From: Streptomyces sp. NBC_01237
GTDB taxonomy: Bacteria > Actinomycetota > Actinomycetes > Streptomycetales > Streptomycetaceae
Assembly (NCBI RefSeq): GCF_035917275.1
Contig: NZ_CP108508.1
Location: forward strand, 3,720,001 to 3,784,000
DNA: 64,000 nt
Direction: 5' to 3'
Part shown: piece by piece, positions 1-11,717 of the stretch
Numbering within the stretch: position 1 is the stretch's first letter
Layout: the number at the start of each line of letters is the position of its first letter
Made by a program: the position numbers and the translations under genes
Notes under the pieces: model-generated
The model's database searches: none
Told to the model about the DNA's origin: nothing
The model's input: the letters and a program-made list of their open reading frames with translations, nothing else

Positions 1-2319
1 TCCACGGTTGCCGCGCTTGCCGAACGTTGGGCCCAGGCCGGAGCTCCCATTCCCGAAGGACAGCTTGAACTCCGTCTGGCCACGCTGTCCGAGGCCCACA
101 CCCGCCTGGCGCACGTCAACGCGTTCGGCACGTCCCGTGAGCACATCGACGGACTGCTCGTGCGTCATGGTCTGCACATCGCTCTCACATCACGTACGGC
201 ATGGCAGGAGTTCACCAACGCTCTGTCCACCCTCTCCAGCCGCCGGACCGCGGACGAGGCCACCGGCCGGCTTGCCGCTTGGGAGGAGCAACTCCGTACC
301 CCGCTTGATGGCTCTCGCCCCGCCGTAGAAGCACTGGCCGTCGCCCAGGCTGTCCGGGAGCAGGACATTGACCGCTACGCAAAGGAACTCGACGCACTGC
401 GGGAGGCGCATCGACGTGAGCATCGACAACGCCGGTGCGGCGTACTTCTGGAAGGCGTTCGCGCGGCGCACCCTCTGCTCGCCGACCATCTGACGCGGCA
501 CCCCGACGATCCGGTATGGGAGGCTCGACTGGACTCACTGGCCGAGGCGTGGGCCTGGGGAGCGGCTTCCGCCTTCGTGCGCCGCCAGCGATCGCAGGGG
601 CGCGAACGTCAGCTTGAAGGCGAACTGTCCCAGTGCGAGAGAAACCTGGAGTCGCTAACCGGCGAACTTGCCGCAGCCTGGGGCCGGTTGCATTGCCTTG
701 AGCGTATGACTCAGGAGCAGCGGTCCGCCCTTCAGGCTTACCGCAACCACATGGCCTCGTACGGCAAGGGAAAGGGCCGAAACGCGGGCCGCTACCGTGC
801 TGCTGCGCACGACGCCATGCGGACGGCGCAGGGGGCGGTACCCGCCTGGGTCATGCCCATCTCGCAAGTCGCCGAGACGGTACTGCCCCAGCGGGACGCG
901 TTCGATGTGGTCATCGTCGACGAGGCCAGTCAGGCGGGAATGGATGCTCTGTTCCTGCTATGGCTCGCCCCGCGCGTGATCGTCGTCGGGGACGACAAGC
1001 AGTGCGCGCCCCCGGTCAGCGGCATGGGTCGCACCCAGGCGATCCATGACCGGCTTGTCTCCCACCTGCCGGACATGCCGCCGATGCTGCGCACGCTCTA
1101 CGGCCCCGCGACCAACCTCTACCAGTTGTTGTCCACCTTCTTCCCAAAGGTGATCCGGCTGGAGGAGCACTTTCGGTGCATGCCCGAGATCATCGGCTGG
1201 TCCTCGCAGACCTTCTACAACAACAAACTTCAGCCGCTGCGCCAGTACGGCGGTGAGCGCCTCAGCCCTCTCGTGACGCACTTCGTCGAAGGAGCCGTGG
1301 CCCAGGGACGCGACAGCCGGCTCCGCAATCCGAAGGAAGCCGAGGCCATCGTCGACTGTCTGGCCGGGCTCGTGGAAGACCCTGCTTACCGGGACAAGAC
1401 CATGGGGGTCATCACCCTCCAGGGACCGATCGGGCAGGTCAAGCTCCTGGAACAGCTGATCAATGCGCGTATTCCGGCACCGGTACGCGAGCGCCACAAG
1501 ATCCGTGTAGGCAACCCGGCGTCGTTCCAGGGAGACGAGCGGCATGTCATTCTGCTGTCGATGGTCGCCAGCGATCCACCGCGCATTGCCGGCGGTGCTC
1601 GCAGCGAGCGGCAGGCTTACAACGTCGCTGCGTCCCGAGCCCAGGACCAGATGCGGCTCTTCTACTCGGTTCCGCCGGACCGCCTCAAGCAAGGAGACCT
1701 TCGCCTCAACCTCCTTGCCTACATGGAGAATCCGCCCGCCGCACTTGCCGCCTCCGACGATATCGGGGAGGTGTCCGCCGAGGTCCCGCAGAAGCCGTTC
1801 GAGTCGCTCTTTGAGCAGCACGTCTACTTGCGGCTGAAGGCTCGCGGATATCACGTCATCCCGCAGTGCCCGGCTGGAAGCAAACGCATCGACCTCGTCG
1901 TCCTAGGCGCTCGTGGGCGTCTGGCCGTGGAGTGTGACGGTGACCGATACCACACGACGCCTGAGCAGATCCGGCACGATGAACAGCGTGATCGTGAACT
2001 TCAGCGAGTGGGCTGGACGTTCTGGCGCCTTCCCGAGAGCGAGTTCCGCTTCGACCCAGACCAGGCCCTGTCCGGCCTGTGGGAGGAGCTGAACCGGCTG
2101 GGCATCCGTCCGGCTACTTTCCGTGGCACCGATGACGGGTCCCGGTCGGCCCCTGCATCCTCCGGCACGCAATGGACCCCGCTCGACCTTTCCTCCGATG
2201 AAGGGCTGACCGAGGGTCCGGCGGAATCCTCCGACCATCCCGACGCGACCGATCCGGTCGCCGCTCTCGAGACGACAGAAGTCGACGAGACCAACGACAC
2301 CGCGGAAGGCACAGCATGA
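1..2319 (+). CDS. SF1 helicase fused to C-terminal Vsr/DUF559-like nuclease (5' end outside window)
   Basis: The reading frame is open from base 1, so the N-terminus, including the Walker A region, lies before the window; 772 residues are visible. A coiled, charged stretch (about residues 100-260) precedes a superfamily 1 helicase core of the AAA_11/AAA_12 type: DEAS Walker B near base 920, GDDKQCAPP just after it, and the motif V/VI region SFQGDERHVIL then NVAASRAQDQM near 1525-1655. The C-terminus (about bases 1790-2080) is a PD-(D/E)xK fold of the DUF559/Vsr kind, with RIDLVV and AVECDGDRYH giving the acidic residues and Y/H typical of the family. Helicase-Vsr fusions are known among defence-island genes, where they are thought to unwind and cut foreign DNA; that role here is inference. 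An acidic, Ser/Thr-rich tail follows. The stop overlaps the next ATG (ATGA), so the two genes are translationally coupled. Confidence 0.85.
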   Translation, partial: STVAALAERWAQAGAPIPEGQLELRLATLSEAHTRLAHVNAFGTSREHIDGLLVRHGLHIALTSRTAWQEFTNALSTLSSRRTADEATGRLAAWEEQLRTPLDGSRPAVEALAVAQAVREQDIDRYAKELDALREAHRREHRQRRCGVLLEGVRAAHPLLADHLTRHPDDPVWEARLDSLAEAWAWGAASAFVRRQRSQGRERQLEGELSQCERNLESLTGELAAAWGRLHCLERMTQEQRSALQAYRNHMASYGKGKGRNAGRYRAAAHDAMRTAQGAVPAWVMPISQVAETVLPQRDAFDVVIVDEASQAGMDALFLLWLAPRVIVVGDDKQCAPPVSGMGRTQAIHDRLVSHLPDMPPMLRTLYGPATNLYQLLSTFFPKVIRLEEHFRCMPEIIGWSSQTFYNNKLQPLRQYGGERLSPLVTHFVEGAVAQGRDSRLRNPKEAEAIVDCLAGLVEDPAYRDKTMGVITLQGPIGQVKLLEQLINARIPAPVRERHKIRVGNPASFQGDERHVILLSMVASDPPRIAGGARSERQAYNVAASRAQDQMRLFYSVPPDRLKQGDLRLNLLAYMENPPAALAASDDIGEVSAEVPQKPFESLFEQHVYLRLKARGYHVIPQCPAGSKRIDLVVLGARGRLAVECDGDRYHTTPEQIRHDEQRDRELQRVGWTFWRLPESEFRFDPDQALSGLWEELNRLGIRPATFRGTDDGSRSAPASSGTQWTPLDLSSDEGLTEGPAESSDHPDATDPVAALETTEVDETNDTAEGTA

Positions 2320-3155
2320 CCCAGCAGTCCCCCATCGGCATCCTGGACGGCAACACCCTGGAGGAACTGGCCCGCGTCATCTGCGGCGACGAGCACCTCT
2401 ATTACCGCAAGGGTTTCGAGATCGCGCGCTTCCTGGAACACGCTGGTTGGCAGAGGGTTCCGGAGTACGACGGCGAGTATCGCAAGGAGTGGACACTCGA
2501 CCGGCTTTCCGAACGTCGGGAGGACCCGACCGACCTCGAAAAGGTTCTGCTCCGACTCGCGGACCCGCGCGAATACTTCGACGAGCCCGAGCAGCTGTCT
2601 GCGGTGGTCTCCGCCGTCAATGCTTTCCTCGTCCACGAAGGAGCCCGTCTGGAGAACCCCGGCGGCCGGCCCCGTATCGTCGCTTGCGATCCCTCTCTCA
2701 ACTACCCGGGCAACCAGGGTCCGGTCGAACTCAGCGCGGCCATGACCGATCTCATCAACAACAAGGACATGGCGACACTCCTCCAGCACCGCTTGGACGA
2801 GGCCCGTACCTGCTACGCCAACGGCGCTCACGTAGCCGCCATCATCATGCTTGGCAGCCTCCTCGAAGGCGTTCTCGTCCATGTGGTCCAAGAGCGCGAC
2901 GCCTCGCTGCTCGGCCGGACGTCTCCGGACAAGGTAAACCTGGACACACTGATCAAGACCTGCCACGACGCGGGCTGGATCGGCGCTGACGTCGAGCGCT
3001 TCTGCCACGAGCTTCGTAGGTACCGCAACTTCGTCCATCCACGCGCTGAAATCCGCGAGGCTCACGCCCCCGACCGGGACACGCTGAACATGTGCTGGCC
3101 CGTGGTCAATGCGGTCCTCAACGACCTTGCCGAATCACAGCCTGAAGCGACTTAG
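2316..3155 (+). CDS. HEPN-like protein coupled to the helicase-nuclease
   Basis: A 279-residue protein beginning inside the stop of the helicase gene (ATGA). The N-terminal half has no motif I recognise. The C-terminal third (about residues 150-270) is predicted helical, with a hydrophobic helix around HVAAIIMLGSLLEGVLVHVV, and ends in RRYRNFVHPRAEI. R237-N238-x-x-H241-P resembles the RN..HP signature of HEPN-like and Abi C-terminal domains, many of which are RNases or bind nucleotides. The spacing from R237 to H241 is only three residues; R235 to H241 (five between) fits the canonical R-x4-6-H better. Tight coupling to a helicase-nuclease suggests a shared anti-phage or abortive-infection role. 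Assignment to HEPN is by motif only; a non-enzymatic accessory subunit is equally possible. Confidence 0.7.
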   Translation: MTQQSPIGILDGNTLEELARVICGDEHLYYRKGFEIARFLEHAGWQRVPEYDGEYRKEWTLDRLSERREDPTDLEKVLLRLADPREYFDEPEQLSAVVSAVNAFLVHEGARLENPGGRPRIVACDPSLNYPGNQGPVELSAAMTDLINNKDMATLLQHRLDEARTCYANGAHVAAIIMLGSLLEGVLVHVVQERDASLLGRTSPDKVNLDTLIKTCHDAGWIGADVERFCHELRRYRNFVHPRAEIREAHAPDRDTLNMCWPVVNAVLNDLAESQPEAT

Positions 3156-3213
3156 CCCTGCCCGGCTGTGCCTCTGTCCTGCAGCACTCAAGTGCCCCTG
3201 TCAGGGAGACAAA

Positions 3214-4563
3214 TTGAAGAAGGCAGCAGACCTACTGACAGAACTTTCGCGGCCGTCGAACGTCGCGACTCACTCCAGCATGGCGCTCGTCGGCAACGTG
3301 GACGCCGCGGGCGCCGATGAGGACAAGAAGAGGAAGGAGAAAGAACTCGACGCCCTACGCCGCAAGCCGAAGCTCCAGGCCATCCCCACAAGGGAAGTCG
3401 GCTCCTTCCAGCTGGCCCCCTGGGATGTGCTCCATACACTGGCCCGAGCAGTGGCTCTCGCCAGGCGAGGGGCGGGCCGTGGACTCGCCGAGCACTGGGG
3501 AAGCCTGAAATACAGCCAAGCCCTGACCGGGGGCTCGGACGTCTACATGAAGCTCTCAGCTGAAGGCCGCGAAAACGCGGACTACTACAAGGCGCTCCAG
3601 TCGGACGAACTTGGGATCGGCTTCGGTCTTGCGTTGGCCAAGCAGGTCTTGACCCGTCGCTATCCGCAGCACATAGTGTCGATCGTCCCGGCCGACACAG
3701 CCCTGCGTGCAGGCTGGGCCTTGACCAGCAGGGACAAGGGCCCCCGGGCTGGATATCGGTACCGTCCGCGGTTCTTCGCCGAGGTCTGGAAGCCCGGTGA
3801 GCCGTCGCGCGTCTTCCCGATCGAGTCCAAGGGGAACCACAGCAACGCTGCGACGTCTCACGATCAGCTCGCCTCTGCCTCCGCACACGTGGAGGCAGTA
3901 CACATCGGCTCATGGAACGAGACACCGAGCCTGGTATTCAGCACGGAGCTCCCAGCGGACGGCCCTCTCACCATCCACGCCCTGCATGCCGCCGGAACGG
4001 ACGGACGGTTGAACCACTCGGCGGAGAATACCGGGAGGAATCTTGACTATTCCACCGAAGACGCGAATTTCTTCCCGGGCATCCAGCCGCCCACCGAAGG
4101 CGACAGAGCTCCCCAGAAGGAGCCCGGCTTCCACGTCACGCCGGAGCGCCGCCGATGGTTCGGGCATGTCCTCGCACGCACAGCAGCCGCCGGACTGACC
4201 GCATTCGCCGGGGACGGCGAGGCAACCGTCCAGTATCTGACCAAGCGGCAGGGCAACCGGCACTTCACCGGCTTCGCCCATGCGGCCACAGGGAGTGTTC
4301 AAGACGCGCGTGAGGAACTCCTCGGTATCCAGTTCGTCGGCACAGACCATGTTTTCCGACTGAACAGAACACGCGTCGAGGCGTTCTCCGGGGTCGCGGA
4401 AGGCCTCTTCCGCCACCTCGAAGGGGGCAGGGTGGAGCAGTATCGCCGCGAGGTCTACGCCCGACGAGACACCTGGCCTGTCGACACATGGGACAACAAG
4501 TGGCACGGCCCCGTCTCGATGAGTCCTGACGGATCTGTGCTTGCTATGAGAGTGCTGACCTGA
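3214..4563 (+). CDS. Unknown protein with a possible E-x-K nuclease motif (third gene of the cassette)
   Basis: The frame is open from upstream, but the first start clear of the preceding gene with a good ribosome site is TTG at 3214, seven bases or so after AGGGAGA; this gives 449 residues. I do not recognise the family. There is a charged Lys/Glu helix at residues 30-50, an all-helical-looking region, then a beta-rich stretch containing RFFAEVW and FPIESKGNH (E204, K206). E-x-K at the end of a strand is the second half of the PD-(D/E)xK active site, so a nuclease is conceivable, but no convincing upstream Asp could be assigned. The gene is 58 bp after the HEPN-like gene, on the same strand, and is the last gene before the tRNA-Arg scar. 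Family assignment would need a profile search. Confidence 0.7.
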   Translation: MKKAADLLTELSRPSNVATHSSMALVGNVDAAGADEDKKRKEKELDALRRKPKLQAIPTREVGSFQLAPWDVLHTLARAVALARRGAGRGLAEHWGSLKYSQALTGGSDVYMKLSAEGRENADYYKALQSDELGIGFGLALAKQVLTRRYPQHIVSIVPADTALRAGWALTSRDKGPRAGYRYRPRFFAEVWKPGEPSRVFPIESKGNHSNAATSHDQLASASAHVEAVHIGSWNETPSLVFSTELPADGPLTIHALHAAGTDGRLNHSAENTGRNLDYSTEDANFFPGIQPPTEGDRAPQKEPGFHVTPERRRWFGHVLARTAAAGLTAFAGDGEATVQYLTKRQGNRHFTGFAHAATGSVQDAREELLGIQFVGTDHVFRLNRTRVEAFSGVAEGLFRHLEGGRVEQYRREVYARRDTWPVDTWDNKWHGPVSMSPDGSVLAMRVLT

Positions 4564-4787: not shown

Positions 4788-4831
4788 CTCCTAAAGCGGG
4801 TGTCGCAGGTTCGAATCCTGCCGGGGGCACA
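4788..4831 (+). other. 3' fragment of tRNA-Arg(CCU): probable att site of an integrative element
   Basis: The stretch reads as the 3' part of a tRNA: anticodon loop CTCCTAAAG (anticodon CCU), the variable region, a perfect T-arm GCAGG-TTCGAAT-CCTGC (4805-4821), and the acceptor 3' strand CGGGGGC (4822-4828). The bases upstream of 4788 do not pair as a D-arm or as the 5' acceptor strand, so the gene is only half a tRNA. Partial 3' tRNA copies like this are left at one end of an island when an integrase recombines into the 3' end of a tRNA. The orientation implies the element lies to the left (helicase side), with the intact tRNA before the window. Confidence 0.75.
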
Positions 4832-4961
4832 GTGGTAAATAGCAGGTGAGAGCACGTAGGCTGCTGGGCAGGGAGGGGCAGGCACGTCTCCCCACGCGCG
4901 CCTGAGACGCGCCTCCCGAAAGTCTGTGGTGTACCGGCGGGGAGGCTGGTCCCACAGAAGC

Positions 4962-4994
4962 AAGGCCCCCACCGGTTATGTCGGTGGGGGCCTT
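4962..4994. terminator. 13-bp hairpin, bidirectional terminator-like
   Basis: AAGGCCCCCACCG, a 7-base loop, then the exact complement CGGTGGGGGCCTT. The flanking A/T pairs make it a plausible intrinsic terminator in either direction, downstream of the tRNA fragment. Confidence 0.7.
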
Positions 4995-5011
4995 CTGCTG
5001 TCCAACGTAGA

Positions 5012-5041
5012 CCGCCCCGCACCTGTTTGGGTGCGGGGCGG
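5012..5041. terminator. 12-bp GC-rich hairpin
   Basis: CCGCCCCGCACC, a 6-base loop, then GGTGCGGGGCGG. It lies 18 bases after the previous hairpin, so the two form a tandem structure between the island scar and the XRE gene. There is no U-tract. Confidence 0.55.
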
Positions 5042-5223
5042 GGCGCCATGACCGAGTCATAGCGCCATGCGGCGGAATCTGGCGGAGACGCGTACACCAG
5101 ACGCCGCATTCGATGCCGGGCCCTTTCGGGTCGGCCGCTCAGGGTTACGTGCCTATGGCATGTGCCGCAAGATGTAGGTTCTGCCCTGCATACATTCGAT
5201 CATGGTCGGGCGAGCGTGACTGT

Positions 5224-5463
5224 GTGCCGCGCTCCGTTCCACCACCCGACTGGGTACTCACCCGCCGCCGGGCCATCGGAGACCGCATCCGCGCAGCCCG
5301 GCTCACCACTGGCCTGACGCAGGAGCAGGTAGCCCTGCGCATCGGGATGGACCGGGCCACGTACAACCGGATCGAGATGGGCCCCTCGGCCGCGTTGGTC
5401 GACAGCCTCATCCTCATTGCCGACGCCCTGGGCACAGATCTCGCCGACTTCGTCCGGAAGTAG
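5224..5463 (+). CDS. Small XRE-family helix-turn-helix regulator
   Basis: A 79-residue protein that is almost only a Cro/C1 HTH: AIGDRIRAARLTTGLTQEQV (helix 1-2), then ALRIGMDRATYNRIEMG as the recognition helix region. GTG at 5224 is chosen because the family usually starts a few residues before the LTRRR segment; an upstream in-frame ATG at 5155 would add about 23 Cys-rich residues that look non-coding. Its targets cannot be read from the sequence. It sits alone on the plus strand, convergent with the minus-strand small-gene operon at 5601-6402. Confidence 0.7.
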   Translation: MPRSVPPPDWVLTRRRAIGDRIRAARLTTGLTQEQVALRIGMDRATYNRIEMGPSAALVDSLILIADALGTDLADFVRK

Positions 5464-5600
5464 CCCGGCCGGTCACCGGAGTCCGTGCCGGTTCGGGTCG
5501 TGGCAGCCACCTTTCGTGGTGCCGCATCCGGAGCAGCCCTGCCCGCCTTCGTCGTTCGCGGTCGGGGTGGGAAGCGTCGCGCTGTGCATGGTGGTTCCGT

Positions 5601-6038
5601 TCAGGTGGTGTGGCAGGGGCAGGCGCAGTCGGGGCGCCGGCAGTGGTCGTGGCCGTCGGCGAGGTGGGGTTGCTGTGCTGCGCGGCAGGGGGTGCTGTGT
5701 GTGTCGCCGCGAAGCTGCTCGGCCAGTGCCAGCACGTCATCGAGCCGGGCCCCGGAAGCCGCGGCCTCGGCCATCTCGACGTCCGTGATCGGTTCGCCGC
5801 GCCACAGGAGGGTGACTCCGTGTTCGGGGCACCGGGCCATGCCGTCGGTCTCGATCGCGAAGTCGTGGACACCGCCGCTGTGGTGACACTTCACTCGGAT
5901 CCCCTCCCCGCGTGGTCCGGGGTGTTCGGCCACTCCCTGTGCTCGCTGGGGACCCGTGTGGCCGGGGGGCTGGGGGCACCGGGCGAATGTGCCGGGGCGC
6001 TCCGCCCAGCAGTACCCGTACCCGATCGGCGCGCTCAC
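5601..6038 (-). CDS. Small Cys/His-containing protein of unknown function
   Basis: 145 residues starting at GTG 6038, with AAGG just upstream and a GTGA overlap with the previous gene's stop. The protein contains YCWAERPGTFARCPQPPGH near its N-terminus, a middle CPEHGV preceded by KCHHSGGVHDF, and a C-terminal CRRPDCACPCH. The paired Cys/His residues suggest one or two small zinc sites. It is the last gene of a three-gene operon with 6190-6402 and 6035-6190. I do not recognise a named family; similar Cys-rich small proteins often accompany XRE regulators in Streptomyces. Confidence 0.6.
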   Translation of the reverse strand: MSAPIGYGYCWAERPGTFARCPQPPGHTGPQRAQGVAEHPGPRGEGIRVKCHHSGGVHDFAIETDGMARCPEHGVTLLWRGEPITDVEMAEAAASGARLDDVLALAEQLRGDTHSTPCRAAQQPHLADGHDHCRRPDCACPCHTT

Positions 6039-6190
6039 CGCCGTGCCTTCTTCCACGCTCGGCCGAGCCGTATGACGGTCGCGCACTGCGCTCCCGTACG
6101 GCAGGCGTCGCACGCCAGGGTGTGCCCGAGGTACGCCAGATACGCGCGCTCCGGGGGCGGGACTGCGGTCCGCCGCTGCGTCGACGCCAT
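6035..6190 (-). CDS. 51-residue Cys-containing small protein
   Basis: ATG at 6190 overlaps the stop of the upstream gene (ATGA) and its own stop overlaps the next GTG (GTGA), so it is translationally coupled at both ends, which is the main support for it being real. The sequence includes HTLACDACRTGAQC, a C-x2-C-x5-C arrangement that could hold a metal. No function is known to me. Confidence 0.55.
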   Translation of the reverse strand: MASTQRRTAVPPPERAYLAYLGHTLACDACRTGAQCATVIRLGRAWKKARR

Positions 6191-6402
6191 CACCGGGCCG
6201 CCCTCCGCCCCGAGCACGCCAGGGCGTCCACGCACTCACGGGGGAACCACGCGTACGCGGCACCGGTGGCGGGGGTGACGCGCTGCTCGCCGAGGTCGAC
6301 ACCGAGGTCCTTGCCGAGCGGTGACCGGCACCACACGCAATGCCAACCGCGCTGCTGCTGTTCCGACAGTGCACTGACCGGCGGTAGCTGTTGCACAGCC
6401 AT
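6190..6402 (-). CDS. 70-residue CxxC protein, first gene of the small-ORF operon
   Basis: Begins at ATG 6402 just after a GGGG stretch. It contains WHCVWCRSPLG, a C-x2-C knuckle, and later FPRECVDALAC, a second Cys pair, so a small zinc ribbon is likely. Its stop is overlapped by the next ATG. It is divergent from the 6593 operon, from which it is separated by 190 bases that probably contain both promoters. Confidence 0.55.
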   Translation of the reverse strand: MAVQQLPPVSALSEQQQRGWHCVWCRSPLGKDLGVDLGEQRVTPATGAAYAWFPRECVDALACSGRRAAR

Positions 6403-6592
6403 GGGGCCCCCTGAGTCATCGGAGTGGACCTCAGACCGTAGGGACCGCCTGTGCGTGCACACCAGCCATGTGCAGATCTGTGCGCACGACCCCTCTTTCA
6501 GGGGCAGTGGCTATCCCGCACCTTTGACCGAAGTTCCAATCTGCTCAACGGTGTTGCACACAACTGCACACCACCCAGCCGGAGGTCGCACC

Positions 6593-6856
6593 ATGTCGCT
6601 ACTGTTCATCGGGATCGATCCCGAGACCGGGGACCACGAGAGCCCGACCGTGTGGGTCGACCAGGAGAACAAGGAACTCGTCTTCCAGGGGTGGAAGCCG
6701 AGAGCCAAACTTGAAGCCGAATGCGCGGCGCTGAAACTGCCCGGCCACGCCGCAGGAATCCCGGACACCGAGGCCGTCATCCGCATCCCCGCCAGGATGG
6801 CGGACATGATCAGGAAGGCGTGCGATGCCGTCGAACGTGCCAACGACGTTCCGTGA
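6593..6856 (+). CDS. Small hypothetical protein upstream of DUF6879
   Basis: 87 residues from ATG 6593, with GGAGG seven bases upstream. The protein is acidic and begins MSLLFIGIDPETGDHESPTV; I recognise it only as the kind of small protein that accompanies DUF6879 and XRE genes in Streptomyces. It overlaps the next gene by 32 bases, which implies coupled expression. Confidence 0.7.
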   Translation: MSLLFIGIDPETGDHESPTVWVDQENKELVFQGWKPRAKLEAECAALKLPGHAAGIPDTEAVIRIPARMADMIRKACDAVERANDVP

Positions 6857-7355
6857 CCTGCTAGCTGGGTGCGAGCAGTCCGCCGTGCACCTCGAAATGC
6901 GTGACGCCTACGCCGTCGACTACGAGAAGGGGCCGTTCGCCGAGTGGCGGTCCGGCTACCGGCACGACCCGGCAGACCGGGCATCCTGGTGGCGGCCCTG
7001 GCTCGATATTGTCGCCGACACCGTGGACCGCGGCGTCGTCATGCGTCGGGCCCGCATTGTGTCCGAGCCTGTCAGTGAGTACATCCGCTACGAGCACTCC
7101 GGCACCTTCACGAACATCGCGGCCGGGGAACAGGTGCGGTGGCTGCCCCGACGCGAGACATCGGGGATCGCCCTGCCCGGCAACGACTTCTGGCTCTTTG
7201 ACGACCAGCTGGTCCAGTGGAACCACTTCGCCGGTGACGGCTCGTCCCAGGGCCCCGAGATCAACCGCGACCCGGCAGCGGTGAAGCTCTGCAGCGAAGC
7301 CTTCGAAAGAGTCTGGGACCGGGCTGTACCGCACGACCAGTACAAGATCCGCTAG
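6825..7355 (+). CDS. DUF6879 family protein
   Basis: 176 residues, starting inside the previous gene with AGGAAGG as ribosome site. The sequence has the DUF6879 pattern: FRDLLAGCEQSAVHLEMRD, then YAVDYEKGPFAEWRSG, WWRPWLDIV, ARIVSEPVSEYIRYEH, and late LPGNDFWLFDD. The biochemical role of the family is unknown; it is almost always next to an XRE/DUF5753 regulator, as here (7381). It has no signal peptide or membrane segment. Confidence 0.85.
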   Translation: MPSNVPTTFRDLLAGCEQSAVHLEMRDAYAVDYEKGPFAEWRSGYRHDPADRASWWRPWLDIVADTVDRGVVMRRARIVSEPVSEYIRYEHSGTFTNIAAGEQVRWLPRRETSGIALPGNDFWLFDDQLVQWNHFAGDGSSQGPEINRDPAAVKLCSEAFERVWDRAVPHDQYKIR

Positions 7356-7380
7356 TGGCCGCACCCGGACAGGCCAGCAC

Positions 7381-8232
7381 ATGACCACATCCCCGTCCTC
7401 CTCTGCTCAGGCTGCGCGGGAAATCGTCGCCCAGCGACTGCGTGACCTTCGCAGGGCGGCAGGGCTCACGGTCGTGGAGCTGGCCACCGGGTGCGGCTGG
7501 CACCACGCGAAGACGTCCCGGATCGAGAACGCGCGCACTGCCCCGACGGCCACGGACATCCGGCTGTGGTGCCGCACCCTCGGAGTCGACGAGCAGGCAG
7601 ATGACCTGATTGCACAGTCGCTGCACGCCGAGTCGATGTACACCGAGTGGCGCCACCGGACACGCAGCGGGCTGAAGCAGCTCCAGGACAGTGCCGTGAC
7701 GTTCTTCCACCAGACCGAACTGTTCCGTGTCTACTCTTCATCTCTGGTTCCCGGCCTGCTCCAGACCGAGGGCTACGCGGCGGCTGTGCTCGGGATGAGT
7801 GCCCGCTTCCGCGACCTGCCCGTCGACGACAGCGCAGAAGCAGCCCGCGCCCGGGTGGAGCGCTCGCGCATCATCCATGAGCGAGGCCACCGCTTCGTCC
7901 TCCTCGTTGAAGAGGCTGTCCTTCACTACCGGATCGGGGACGCCGACGCGATGGCAGCCCAGCTCGGACACCTCCTCACTGCCGGCGCTCTGCCTGCGGT
8001 GTCGCTCGGCATTATCCCGGCGGTCGCGCACCGCGAGCAGTGGCCGCGAGAGACCTTTCACGTCTACGACGACACGTTGGTTTCGGTCGAGCTGATTTCT
8101 GCACAGGTCCGCATCACACAGCCCAGCGAGATCGCGCTCTACGCGAAGGCGTTCGAGCAAATGCGACGGACCGCCGTGTACGGGGCAGCGGCGCGAGCCC
8201 TCGTTGTGAAGGCCATCGAAGCCCTAGCCTGA
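7381..8232 (+). CDS. XRE regulator with DUF5753 domain
   Basis: 283 residues. The N-terminal XRE HTH covers about residues 14-65 (IVAQRLRDLRRAAGL, then HHAKTSRIENARTAP). The DUF5753 sensor domain follows, with LVPGLLQTEGYAAAVL, then RFVLLVEEAVLHYRIG and FHVYDDTLVSVE. This is the Scr1-type regulator architecture that normally partners a DUF397 or DUF6879 protein, an arrangement reminiscent of atypical toxin-antitoxin or developmental switches. It follows the DUF6879 gene by 25 bases and is probably cotranscribed with it. No operator is obvious. Confidence 0.88.
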   Translation: MTTSPSSSAQAAREIVAQRLRDLRRAAGLTVVELATGCGWHHAKTSRIENARTAPTATDIRLWCRTLGVDEQADDLIAQSLHAESMYTEWRHRTRSGLKQLQDSAVTFFHQTELFRVYSSSLVPGLLQTEGYAAAVLGMSARFRDLPVDDSAEAARARVERSRIIHERGHRFVLLVEEAVLHYRIGDADAMAAQLGHLLTAGALPAVSLGIIPAVAHREQWPRETFHVYDDTLVSVELISAQVRITQPSEIALYAKAFEQMRRTAVYGAAARALVVKAIEALA

Positions 8233-8250
8233 CCCCAGACGCGCGAAAGA

Positions 8251-8278
8251 GCCCCCTCCGCCCGAAGGCGAAGGGGGC
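8251..8278. terminator. Hairpin after the XRE-DUF5753 operon
   Basis: GCCCCCTCCGCC-CGAA-GGCGAAGGGGGC, with two central mismatched pairs, ends 46 bases after the stop codon and is the likely transcription terminator. Confidence 0.6.
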
Positions 8279-8334
8279 AACCCTGCAGTGCAGGGACCAT
8301 GGCTCCGATGGCATCCATCAGGTCGTAGAGCTGG

Positions 8335-8362
8335 GGACCATCCCCGCGCCTGCGGGGAGCAC
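8335..8362 (-). repeat. Solitary type I-E-like CRISPR repeat
   Basis: A 28-base unit that begins GGACCATCCCCGC and ends TGCGGGGAGCAC. On the minus strand it reads GTGCTCCCCGC...GCGGGGATGGTCC, matching the shape of actinobacterial type I-E CRISPR repeats: 28 nt, a short GC hairpin, GTGCTCC start and ATGGTCC end. No second copy occurs 60-62 bases away on either side, so this is a lone repeat, not an array. No cas gene is in the window. Confidence 0.55.
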
Positions 8363-9027
8363 AGTTCCTGACCTGCGGGTTTACGCACCCAGACCACAAG
8401 AATTTGTGCCTTCACTGCCCCGGATCCTACCGGCGACGGTCATACCGCCGCAGGACTCACGAGCACTTCCTCCGGCGGGCAGGTCTGATCGGCGCGGCCG
8501 TCCGCTCCGGCCCTACCATCCGACCCGTCCTTCCCTGCGGCACTCGCAGGACCAGCAGGACCAGGCACGGTGGAGTCGGCACCCGTCTGCCCAGCCGCAC
8601 CGGACAGCCAGCCCTGAAGGGCGGGGCTCGATGGCCGTCGAGATCACCGTCATGCTCTGTCCGCACCGGCTCGCGGCATCGGCCGCCATCACCCTCCGGG
8701 CCTCGTCTCCTTGGCCATGCGGCGTCCCCGCACCCTGTTTATGATGGATAAATAGAAATAAGCAACACAAAGCATGACTGATGGGTCAGTGCTCGGCGGT
8801 GGAGTCGAGGAACTCCCTGACGGCATCGACCGTCACGCGGCAGCACCGGGCCCGGTCCCGTACGCGAAGGCGCCGAGGCGAGCCCGAACACCGCGGCACA
8901 CACCATCGCGATGCTCGGCGTGCGAGGACAGCGCGAACCGCCTCCTCCCCCAACGCCCCCTCCTTGACCACGATTGGGTACCGGTTACTGGGCCGTCAAT
9001 CCCGAACCACCTTGCCAGGAGCCTGAG
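8363..9027. other. Gene-poor accessory stretch
   Basis: About 660 bases without a convincing gene. ORFs at 8404-8751 (plus) and 8786-8971 (minus) have no ribosome site and odd composition. A local AT-rich run at 8738-8765 (TTTATGATGGATAAATAGAAA) stands out from the GC-rich surroundings. The stretch may be decayed mobile DNA. Confidence 0.4.
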
Positions 9028-9354
9028 ATGGCTGAGGAAGAGAGAGGAGCGGCAGGCGTCGCCGCCCTCGCTGAAGCGAACGCTCCGGGGTTCGAGACCC
9101 TCGTCCGGATGACACTCGACACGTTCGGGCGGTCCGGGCCGGACCAGGGGACGTGTCTGCTTGCACGTATCGCGGCACTGGTGACCATTGACGCCTCTGC
9201 CCACGGCAAGGCCGACCGGCCCGGCCTGACGTCGGGTTCCGGCCGGCTCGCTCACCCGGGGCCGAAGGCCCCCCTCCCGCATGCACTGCGACCTCGGACA
9301 CAGACGACACCGAACAGGAGAAGCAATGGGCAGCTATGTGAATCTCGCCTATGA
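9028..9354 (+). pseudogene. Truncated carboxymuconolactone-decarboxylase-like (AhpD-fold) gene
   Basis: ATG 9028 has AGGAG upstream. The first ~60 residues (GFETLVRMTLDTFGRSGPDQGTCLLARIAALVTIDA) resemble the N-terminal half of Streptomyces carboxymuconolactone decarboxylase family proteins, which normally continue into a SYL..LG..A segment. Here the similarity stops after TIDA, the remaining residues are basic and low-complexity, and the frame ends inside the following gene. It is most simply a gene that has lost its 3' half. A frameshift, a deletion or a genuinely short protein cannot be separated by eye. Confidence 0.45.
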
Positions 9355-9745
9355 CTACCCGGTCCTCGGAGCCTTCTGGACGGTCATGTGGATCTTCCTG
9401 TGGGTCATCTGGCTCTTCCTGCTCTTCCGCGTCGTCGTCGACATCTTCCGCGACGACTCCATGAACGGCTGGGCCAAGACAGGATGGCTGGTCTTCACGA
9501 TCGTCCTCCCCTTCCTGGGCGTCTTCGTCTACCTCATCGCCCGGGGCAAGAACATGGGCAGCCGCGAACAGGAGCACGCAAGGGTCAAGATGGAAGAGAC
9601 GAACCGCTACATCCGCGAGGCGGTCGGCACCACCGAGCCTGCCGGCGCGGTGGACCAACTCGCCAAGCTCTCGGAGATCCGGGCCCGAGGTGACATCTCC
9701 GACGAGGAGTTCCGCCTGGCCAAGGAGAAAGTCCTTCGCTCGTAA
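9326..9745 (+). CDS. SHOCT-domain membrane protein with PLDc_N-like head
   Basis: 139 residues, ATG 9326 with AGGAG upstream. Two transmembrane helices (about residues 15-37, rich in F/W/L, and 53-73) match the phospholipase-D-nuclease N-terminal helix pair. A C-terminal SHOCT module covers the last ~30 residues: LAKLSEIRARGDISDEEFRLAKEKVL. Proteins of this build are common in Streptomyces and are anchored in the cytoplasmic membrane; their function is unknown. The gene overlaps the end of the truncated upstream frame. Confidence 0.85.
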   Translation: MGSYVNLAYDYPVLGAFWTVMWIFLWVIWLFLLFRVVVDIFRDDSMNGWAKTGWLVFTIVLPFLGVFVYLIARGKNMGSREQEHARVKMEETNRYIREAVGTTEPAGAVDQLAKLSEIRARGDISDEEFRLAKEKVLRS

Positions 9746-9806
9746 CAGCACACGAGGCAAGGCCCGGTCAGGAGAGCGAGGGCCAGGAGCGAGTTCGGCC
9801 ATCCGT

Positions 9807-11141
9807 TCAATCGCCGCCCTCCGGCCGCTGTGCCATCCGCTCGGCATCAGTGGTCGCGCGGCCGGTGGCGGCGAGGAGGGCGAGCAACGCCAGCACAGCG
9901 AGCAGAATGATGACCAGCAGCAGCACGGCCAGAGCCGTCGGGTGGTTCCAGAGCGCGAAGACCAGAGCCACGGCCAGCAGGGCGGCCGCAGAGAGCCGAC
10001 GGCGGTGGGCCTGGGTCCAGGTTCCCGCCCGGCCGGTGCGGATCCGGTGGGCGTACGCCCATTGTGCCGCGGATCCCGCGGCGCGCTCGGAGACGTCCCG
10101 GACGGCGCGCGGGAGTCGCCCGGGGCCGATCAGGTAGGCGCCGAGCGCGATGAACACACCGAGGACGATCGCCGTGCGCAGACTGACCTTCAGGAAGTGC
10201 AGCAAGGTGTCGAAGACCGCTGCCGCGGCGGCCTCCGACTGGACCTGGGGCGGGAGGTGGTCCAGGTAGTAGCGGCGGGCGATGACCAGGGCGACCGCAA
10301 CGACCAGGCACCCGAAGGCCGCGCCGAGAGCCGTGCGGGCCAGGGCGCGGCGACGCCGGTGTGCCAGCAGCACGCCGGCCGCGCCGGTCACCACGACGAG
10401 CGCAGGAAGCCAGTTCCCGATCGTGTCCAGCAGATGGGCGCCTCTACGGATCTTCTCCAACTGCTCGGACTGGAAGAGCACCATCTGCTTGTCGACCTCG
10501 GGGATCCTGGCGGCCGGGGACAGTCCGGCGTCCACGAGGGCCTGTTTGACCTGGTCGACGGCTTCCCCGACATCGAGGGTGACCGTCCCGGCGTCCACGC
10601 CCACGGCGCCACGGCCCTCGCCGGTGAGCGCGTGCACGACGGCGGTGTGGGCGGCCCGGTTGGCGTTCGTCCAGAGCTGCTCGAAGCGGTCGCTCCGAAC
10701 GAAGCGGGTGGCCACCTTCTCGACCGTGTCGTTGATGGCGGCGTCGAGCTGCGGACCCAGCCCCTTCACGGCCTGCGCGGCCCGCGGTGGCAGGCCCTGT
10801 GCCTGCAGCCAGGCGGCGATGTCCGAGGCCGCCCGGCGGCCGTCAGCCCGCACATCCACGGCAAGGGTGATGCGCTTGACCGCCGCGTCCTCGATCGCGG
10901 GGTCCGAGGCCAGCGGCGAGACCGTTCCCACGAACCGGCCGGTGTCCAGAGCGATGTCGTGCACCCACACCGTCAGCAGCGCGACCGGTACGAGCATGCA
11001 GGTGAGCACGATGAGCACTGCCGAGGCGGTGTTCCGCGTGATCCGTACGGCCGGTCCGTGTGTGGACTCACTTCTCGCCGCGCCACCCGCGCTCCCTGCG
11101 GGGACGGCAGCGGGCTCGGGCACCTCGTGCGGGCTGGGCAT
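9807..11141 (-). CDS. Conserved integral membrane protein, unknown function
   Basis: 444 residues. One transmembrane helix (about 40-62) precedes a ~170-residue extracytoplasmic region with repeated Asp/Val-rich segments, followed by at least four further helices (near residues 245-265, 270-290, 325-345 and a long Leu/Ala/Val-rich pair around 395-430). The periplasmic segment contains LASDPAIEDAAVKRIT, found in a family of Streptomyces membrane proteins of unknown role. No catalytic motif is visible. It is convergent with the SHOCT gene and alone in its transcription unit. Confidence 0.8.
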   Translation of the reverse strand: MPSPHEVPEPAAVPAGSAGGAARSESTHGPAVRITRNTASAVLIVLTCMLVPVALLTVWVHDIALDTGRFVGTVSPLASDPAIEDAAVKRITLAVDVRADGRRAASDIAAWLQAQGLPPRAAQAVKGLGPQLDAAINDTVEKVATRFVRSDRFEQLWTNANRAAHTAVVHALTGEGRGAVGVDAGTVTLDVGEAVDQVKQALVDAGLSPAARIPEVDKQMVLFQSEQLEKIRRGAHLLDTIGNWLPALVVVTGAAGVLLAHRRRRALARTALGAAFGCLVVAVALVIARRYYLDHLPPQVQSEAAAAAVFDTLLHFLKVSLRTAIVLGVFIALGAYLIGPGRLPRAVRDVSERAAGSAAQWAYAHRIRTGRAGTWTQAHRRRLSAAALLAVALVFALWNHPTALAVLLLVIILLAVLALLALLAATGRATTDAERMAQRPEGGD

Positions 11142-11717
11142 GGGGGCTCCGGCACTACTGGAAAGTTCCTGCCTCCATTACCGTCCTTCCACGGCAAGAG
11201 GGCCCGCGCAGGTGGACCATACGGGCGAGACTCGGTCAACCGCCCGGAGCGGCAGCCGCCGACCCACGGGGGACCCGAAGACGCGGCAGCGACGGCGTCT
11301 CCGCCGCGTCGGCATGTCGATCGACCGGTCGATTCTGCGGGGACCGCTGGTGCATCGTGCCGCGACGGCGATGAACATGCGGCGCACAGCGCCGGGTGTT
11401 GCAATGGATCTGTTGGCGGCAACGCCCTTGCGTGGAACCGCACGGCGACGGCACCGGTCCCCTCGCAGCCGGGTACCGGGTCGCGACCATCGGTCCGTAC
11501 CGCTGACCGAGAGCCGTACCGGGTCGCGGCCATCGGCCCGTACCGCTGACCGACGTGCTTCCTGTGGGGGTACGAGCGAGGCGTAGGCCCGAATCGTGCC
11601 CGACCGCCCGGATGCCGGGTCGGCTCGGCCGCCCCGCTCGGACAGCGGTTGGGGTACCGACGGGACGCGGCGCCCACGTACCGGCCCTCGGCACGGCCCT
11701 GCCCGGCAGGAGGCTCC
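11142..11717. other. Intergenic region with a 43-bp tandem repeat
   Basis: No supported gene in 576 bases between two divergent membrane-associated genes. Its only clear structure is the tandem repeat at 11473-11555. Confidence 0.5.
11473..11555. repeat. Two imperfect 43-bp tandem copies
   Basis: Unit begins GTACCGGGTCGCGACCATCG and ends CCGTACCGCTGACCGA; the second copy starts at 11516 and differs at a few bases (CGGCCATCGGCCC). It lies about 160 bp before the lipid-kinase-like start. Confidence 0.75.

Follow-up and report, generated by a model that had tools for sequence, protein, structure and literature searches.

The CnuH-type helicases of CoCoNuT systems typically precede a gene for a winged helix-turn-helix (wHTH) effector; some types use HEPN for this, and another has a fused Vsr nuclease, according to the available part of the description (PMC11090510). 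For the giant MTES_1575 proteins, the available part of the 2013 HEPN survey proposes that the DNase acts first and HEPN-mediated suicide second (PMC3710099). EACC1-caspase pairs with variable C-terminal domains have also been described (PMC7159879, available part). Here, these systems are compared with a three-gene locus at the left end of a 64,000-nucleotide stretch of Streptomyces sp. NBC_01237 (NZ_CP108508.1, positions 3,720,001 to 3,784,000), designated as the window. Gene 1 encodes a helicase-nuclease, gene 2 a HEPN-like protein, and gene 3 a protein of an uncharacterised family. Genes 1 and 2 are a core, conserved unit with a fixed order, gene 3 is a frequent but not obligate member beside them, and the trio lies on a mobile island. 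The reading preferred here, given a probability of roughly 55%, is that this real, mobile and conserved pair with a frequent third partner is the core of an unnamed defence-type module of actinomycetes, its role in defence being predicted, and that gene 3 has an accessory role in sensing or regulation.

The open reading frame (ORF) of gene 1 is open at the left edge of the window, which covers codons 778-1549 only. The GTG start lies left of the window (L002:3670; G000:C1:3717670), and the whole protein has 1549 aa. The first-pass annotation, made from those codons alone, had recognized a fusion of a superfamily 1 (SF1) helicase and a PD-(D/E)xK nuclease. Profile searches agree: the Pfam families AAA_12 (E 3e-17) and AAA_11 (split, E 4.1e-15) were detected, and the MTES_1575 restriction endonuclease family (PF18741) matched with an E-value of 3.9e-29 and 101 bits, passing the gathering cut-off of 38.2. 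Walker A corresponds to residues 396-403, and about 680 residues separate it from the DEAS motif. Walker A, DEAS, and the acidic residues of the nuclease are kept across 31 aligned relatives, an alignment made without L122, whose gene 1 was called in pieces; D1408 and D1423 are present in at least 97% and E1421 in 28 of the 31. Sequence matches in PDB include NAM7/UPF1, SMUBP-2, SEN1, and DNA2, and they are confined to the Walker A region. Residues 1-380 show no Pfam family at E ≤ 5, and the N-terminus matches that of long helicase relatives (HHalign 99.7%). DUF4011 was rejected as the N-terminal domain, the HHalign probability to the N-termini of DUF4011-type relatives being 0.1%.

The start of gene 2 overlaps the stop of gene 1 by 4 bp (ATGA, 2316-2319), the coupling seen in the first-pass annotation. 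DUF4145 (PF13643) was detected in gene 2 with 22.8 bits and an E-value of 1e-4, and in 11 of 24 homologues at E ≤ 1 (best E 6.7e-6). Conserved residues were counted in two overlapping alignments per protein, with 28 and 24 rows for gene 2 and 38 and 24 rows for gene 3. The RN..HP motif noticed earlier corresponds to residues 237-242 of gene 2, and its R237 and H241 are invariant (28/28 and 24/24). The usual HEPN motif is Rx4-6H. Only R234-x6-H241 fits this spacing, and R234 is found in 27/28 and 22/24 rows, otherwise being K. The gene 2 profile reached a best E-value of 0.1 against PDB. AbiJ_NTD3 is not claimed as the N-terminal domain; it was found in only 2 of the 24 homologues (best E 0.053), with an HHalign probability of 1.7%.

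Gene 3 starts with TTG at 3214, 58 bp past gene 2 as first annotated, and GGGAG precedes the start. No Pfam, PADLOC, or NCBIfam model matched gene 3 at E ≤ 1. Seven Pfam families found for gene 3 and 24 homologues at E ≤ 10, with one member each and a best E-value of 0.072, were taken as chance, as were the best PDB profile matches (E 0.062 and 0.18). Residues E93, H94, W95, E190, G207, H209, Q218, D378, and R382 are invariant in all rows. The E-x-K that had drawn attention to this protein is present in the letters as E204-S-K206, but it is not conserved. E204 is kept in 6/38 and 1/24 rows (D in 1/24), and K206 in 35/38 and 18/24, replaced by R in 3/38 and by R, T, or N in 6/24. E-x-K was therefore rejected as the catalytic site, and K206, earlier proposed for mutation, has no support as a catalytic residue because the E of the motif is not conserved. 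Because E204 and, to a lesser extent, K206 vary, a K206 mutant would have limited diagnostic value, and E190, H209, and D378 are more suitable positions for mutation.

The distribution of the genes was analyzed in 199 genomes of the genus, including the window's own genome (G000). Gene 2 matches were found in 16 of the 199, with 14 full-length copies in 13 genomes and short matches in the other three. All 14 full-length copies adjoin, on the downstream side, a helicase gene matching gene 1. Full-length gene 2 is also present on four Streptomyces plasmids. An AAA protein is annotated directly upstream in three of them (H1, H3, and H4) and is named among the listed features of the fourth (H2), these AAA proteins being known by annotation rather than by comparison with gene 1. 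Twelve longer helicase relatives (open frames of 1744-2149 aa, 35-37% identical) have no gene 2 alongside. Some further copies and relatives were observed. G128 has a second, shortened gene 1-2 copy (G128:C2:11568635-11571930) with one in-frame TAG in the gene 1 match. On an S. chartreusis plasmid (L227), gene 2 and its upstream AAA gene adjoin TIGR02678/02679/02680 genes, which we take to be Wadjet-type components. Behind a distant full-length gene 2 relative (24% identity) from Prevotella sp. oral taxon 299 (L228:7004-9315), an ORF resembles a caspase on visual inspection (GHG, DAC). On pBIL of Paraburkholderia fungorum (L230), an integrase and a PIN-domain gene flank a match to the HEPN half of gene 2, and Qat anti-phage genes are close by.

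Gene 3 matches were found in 42 of the 199 genomes. Of the 24 copies counted as full-length, each covering 80% or more of the query in a single piece, 12 have an SF1 helicase gene matching gene 1 no more than 10 kb away, the rough chance expectation being about 0.02. Eight of the 14 gene 1-2 modules have a gene 3 copy at a distance of up to 3 kb. It is co-directional in four (G000, G149, G150, and G128), convergent in two (G090 and G104), and divergent in two (G002 and G059). For G176 and the second copy of G128, gene 3 is present elsewhere in the genome. Thus, the expectation that the three genes are kept together holds for genes 1 and 2 and only in part for gene 3.

A second sample consists of 79 named gene 3 loci. 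It is ranked by similarity to gene 3, as the best 80 of 120 were kept, and the named matches listed are from actinomycetes. The sample overlaps with the 199 genomes (L120/G150, L190/G002, L191/G059, and L192/G180), so the counts are not independent, and L101 is the same locus as L190. Module linkage was assigned by a coverage rule, and the gene caller used for neighbourhoods was rough, missing some genes and starts. Some module is linked in 30 of the 79 loci: helicase-Vsr and HEPN in 15, DUF4011-type helicase-Vsr and HEPN in 4, and caspase-SF1-helicase in 13, with L125 and L137 carrying two modules and counting twice. In the DUF4011-type variant, DUF4011 was seen by Pfam only in L101, and the remaining loci were assigned by similarity. 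When only loci covering 90% or more of gene 3 are counted (67), linkage is seen in 30 and absent from 37. Twelve of the 15 HEPN-module loci are co-directional with the order 1-2-3, including L122, with gene 1 called in pieces, and L161, with a 779-bp gap; L126 has the order 3-1-2, and gene 3 is on the opposite strand in L142 and L167. The 4-bp overlap of genes 1 and 2 is present in 11 of the 15. Also in 11 of the 15, genes 2 and 3 share a strand and are no more than 200 bp apart; in L127 they overlap by 4 bp.

The tRNA scar reported at the end of the operon exactly repeats the 43 bases at the 3' end of tRNA-Arg(CCT); the complete copy of this tRNA (G000:C1:3713165-3713238) lies 11.6 kb upstream. 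Between the tRNA and this right attachment site (attR) are a 130-aa ORF for a C-terminal integrase fragment (PF00589), an IS110-type transposase, a DUF7660 gene, and the trio. The Pfam scan of the island covered seven ORFs, namely the trio, a 168-aa ORF, the IS110 transposase, DUF7660, and the integrase fragment, rather than every small ORF. In G019, listed as the same species, the site is empty: the same tRNA directly joins right-flank sequence of the window (29 bases). The trio of S. seoulensis (L129; 4512-11344) is flanked by copies of the same tRNA end: on one side the tRNA gene itself (1230-1303) and a 44-bp copy (2628-2671), on the other 26 exactly matching bp (11655-11680). A tRNA gene is present in just 14 of the 79 gene 3 loci, so these data do not show the tRNA setting to be general. 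The features are listed in Table 1.

Table 1. Features of the helicase-nuclease/HEPN-like/gene 3 locus, in window positions.
Feature	Position	Strand	Basis
Gene 1, 3' half: UPF1-like SF1 helicase and C-terminal MTES_1575/Vsr nuclease	1..2319	+	ORF, profiles
DEAS (Walker B/motif II), residues 1084-1087	919..930	+	31/31 aligned relatives
AAA_12, second RecA-like helicase domain, residues 1159-1328	1144..1653	+	Pfam
MTES_1575 Vsr-type PD-(D/E)xK nuclease domain, residues 1381-1474	1810..2091	+	Pfam, alignment
D1408	1891	+	within MTES_1575 domain
E1421-x-D1423	1930-1938	+	within MTES_1575 domain
Gene 2, 279 aa: N-terminal ~150 aa without family, DUF4145/HEPN-like C-terminal domain	2316..3155	+	ORF, Pfam
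HEPN-like motif R237-N-F-V-H241	3024..3038	+	alignment
Gene 3, 449 aa, TTG start: uncharacterised family	3214..4563	+	ORF
attR: 43-bp repeat of tRNA-Arg(CCT) 3' end, right end of ~11.6-kb island	4788..4830	+	exact match

Past attR, the guanine-cytosine content of window positions 4831-10000 is 66-68%, vs 70-76% in most of the remainder. This segment carries genes for an Xre-type helix-turn-helix (HTH) protein, DUF6879, and HTH-DUF5753, and G019 has a further near-copy of the tRNA end 5 kb on. The segment is perhaps a second, older element.

The caspase-linked gene 3 homologues adjoin a different type of helicase. The 1245-aa protein of L091 has Peptidase_C14 (Pfam, E 2.4e-23) ahead of an SF1 helicase, and the proteins of L160 and L163 (the latter from S. 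lincolnensis) match the PADLOC caspase model. Of the 15 aligned members of this cluster, 13 carry SGHG and D(C/S)C in an N-terminal domain that L136 and L144 lack. The small neighbour gene passed the EACC1 cut-off in L160 and L092, two of the five tested; no EACC1 was found in L163 and L106 at E ≤ 5, nor in L091 at E ≤ 0.01. Two clusters of small caspase-side genes are related to each other (HHalign 79%); HHalign comparison did not support the small genes next to the caspase-helicase as relatives of gene 2. In each of the 11 caspase-only loci, no more than 200 bp separate gene 3 from a module gene with the same orientation. Homologues placed in this way beside the small (EACC1 or related) gene or the adjoining caspase-SF1-helicase gene were observed in L160, L162, L163, L166, L169-L171, L173, L184, L192, and L138.

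A quick IQ-TREE analysis of gene 3 included 64 of the 79 loci and the window (65 rows), matches spanning 400 residues or fewer being excluded. The module labels are clustered on this tree, with 13 changes for four groups vs a shuffled mean of 27.7, and the three module kinds alone require at least 6 changes as the parsimony minimum. Gene 3 has changed its partner module. On starred branches, two loci with the HEPN module have a caspase locus as tree partner: L160 for L161 (84% identical) and L163 for L167 (97% identical). L167 and L161 are weaker cases than the closely linked ones because gene 3 lies far from the module (2556 bp and 779 bp, respectively). One clade of 13 rows (L140, L141, L143-L152, and L168) represents a gene 3 lineage without a linked module by the coverage rule.

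If the preferred reading of a defence-type module is adopted, the UPF1-like motor would load on foreign or aberrant nucleic acid, such as single-stranded DNA, R-loops, or RNA, and ATP-driven movement would license the fused Vsr nuclease for DNA cutting. The HEPN-like protein, made by coupled translation, may dock on the helicase and, once released or activated, act as an RNase, so that growth stops if DNA cutting is insufficient; the order of DNase first and HEPN suicide second is carried over from the MTES_1575 giants. Gene 3 would supply recognition or control, a role proposed because its family also adjoins the caspase-SF1-helicase module. More tentatively, the gene 3 family may be a new one of actinomycetes and a shared trigger for two executioners, the helicase-Vsr DNase with the HEPN RNase and the EACC1-caspase-helicase, one recognition protein leading either to nucleic-acid destruction or to caspase-type death.

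Several observations weigh against the preferred reading. The DUF4145 score of gene 2 is 0.3 bit short of its gathering cut-off of 23.1, the R237-x3-H241 spacing is one shorter than usual, and sequence comparison detected no wHTH like that of CnuE-type partners in gene 2. E1421 is absent from 3 of the 31 gene 1 relatives, and the linked helicase gene appears split or shortened in G149, G165, and the second copy of G128. Genes 1 and 2 occur without any gene 3 match in four genomes (G026, G033, G053, and G165). No linked module was found in 49 of the 79 gene 3 loci, 38 of them with at least 9 kb visible on both sides and 11 cut by contig ends (less than 9 kb on one side). Gene 3 had no match in the plasmid and phage collections. 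The observations on gene 3, including the 13-row clade, the convergent copies in G104 and G090, the divergent ones in L137, L190, L191, and L198, and the plasmids with gene 2 and an upstream AAA gene, would also be expected if genes 1 and 2 were complete by themselves and gene 3 were a gene in its own right, belonging to defence or to the island, that frequently ends up in the same islands. This explanation is possible, if rather unlikely; the same-strand spacing within 200 bp in 11/15 trio and 11/11 caspase-only loci, with the overlap in L127, is tighter than shared islands alone predict.

The other explanations are less probable. An HEPN-like protein in an overlapping operon, on an island with an integrase fragment, recalls a toxin-antitoxin-like maintenance unit, in which gene 1 and/or gene 3 would restrain the gene 2 toxin so that the island is kept, with phage resistance as a by-product. 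This is improbable, as the partner is a 1549-aa helicase-nuclease rather than a small antitoxin, and its helicase and nuclease catalytic motifs, needless for an antitoxin, are conserved. The helicase clade (UPF1, SMUBP-2, SEN1, and DNA2) and the activity of Vsr-type nucleases also in repair would suit a housekeeping unit for DNA repair or RNA surveillance. That function is the least probable, given the patchy spread of genes 2 and 3 (16/199 and 42/199 genomes), the integration at a tRNA left empty in a genome listed as the same species, and the presumably Wadjet-type neighbours in S. chartreusis. As for gene 3 itself, the arrangement RP[DQHR]-F-x-x-E190...K206-G...Q218 resembles by eye the core of a second PD-(D/E)xK nuclease effector. 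Such an effector is improbable: E204 and K206 vary as described above, the aspartate of 'PD' at 186 occurs in only 3/38 and 9/24 rows, and no convincing Pfam or PDB sequence match was obtained. A degenerate, binding-only PD-(D/E)xK fold is possible, given the invariant E190, G207, H209, and Q218.

With this locus, the UPF1-like helicase-effector defences would gain a branch in actinomycetes that lacks McrBC and combines a DNase with a likely RNase on a single motor. The conserved, nameless gene 3 family links nuclease-type and caspase-type modules; if it is a common sensor, the coupling of nucleic-acid sensing to caspase-like suicide becomes testable.

None of the trio genes reaches the curated cut-off of a named system, in line with the first-pass annotation, which could not assign the trio to one; the nearest are PDC-S37, Hhe, ProA, and CnuH/CnuE of CoCoNuT. 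The combination was not found described in the literature searched, which left aside most subscription papers. The partner domain of Mokosh is a kinase or PLD. The MkoA/MkoC matches of gene 1 fall in the helicase region, and no kinase or PLD domain was found in the seven island ORFs scanned. The best PADLOC match of gene 1 is the candidate system PDC-S37 (1.1e-49, 167 bits, in two stretches), whose model is listed without a cut-off. The gene 2-linked helicase relative L101 scores 852 bits, far above gene 1, whose N-terminus is not DUF4011-like. The NCBIfam matches to the DUF4011 anti-phage protein Hhe and to ProA span the SF1 helicase and the C-terminal nuclease region, but gene 1 reaches 115 bits vs the curated cut-off of 2000 for Hhe and 183 bits vs 1500 for ProA. 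Hhe further differs in having DUF4011, and both differ from the present locus, which has two partner genes.

The MTES_1575 giants (HEPN-transglutaminase-SF1-Vsr-wHTH) share the restriction endonuclease family with gene 1 and likewise pair an SF1 helicase, a Vsr DNase, and a HEPN domain, with no associated methylase described in the available part of the source (PMC3710099). They are single fused proteins with an Abi2/Swt1-type HEPN, whereas here a separate DUF4145-type protein is encoded and no transglutaminase was found. The EACC1-caspase two-gene systems (PMC7159879, available part) resemble the locus through the gene 3 homologues adjoining caspase-SF1-helicases (L091 by Pfam; L160 and L163 by PADLOC); the likeness is limited to these relatives, the window operon having neither caspase nor EACC1. 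CoCoNuT differs in its McrB-type GTPase (CnuB) and McrC homologue (CnuC), neither of which was found among the seven island ORFs scanned by Pfam, and the elongated wHTH of CnuE was not detected in gene 2 by a weak sequence test. In the available part of the CoCoNuT description (PMC11090510), gene 3 has no counterpart; in the present module, Vsr and HEPN occur together. According to the same source, a large helical insertion follows Walker A in the UPF1-like SF1 helicase of Types II and III, a likeness judged here from the spacing between Walker A (396) and DEAS (1084) and the UPF1-type matches; Type III-B has Vsr fused to the helicase, as in gene 1; and Types II and III-A encode a HEPN effector downstream, as gene 2. 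Genes 1 and 2 are best read as a probable CnuH/CnuE-like pair without McrBC, also close to PDC-S37 and Hhe.

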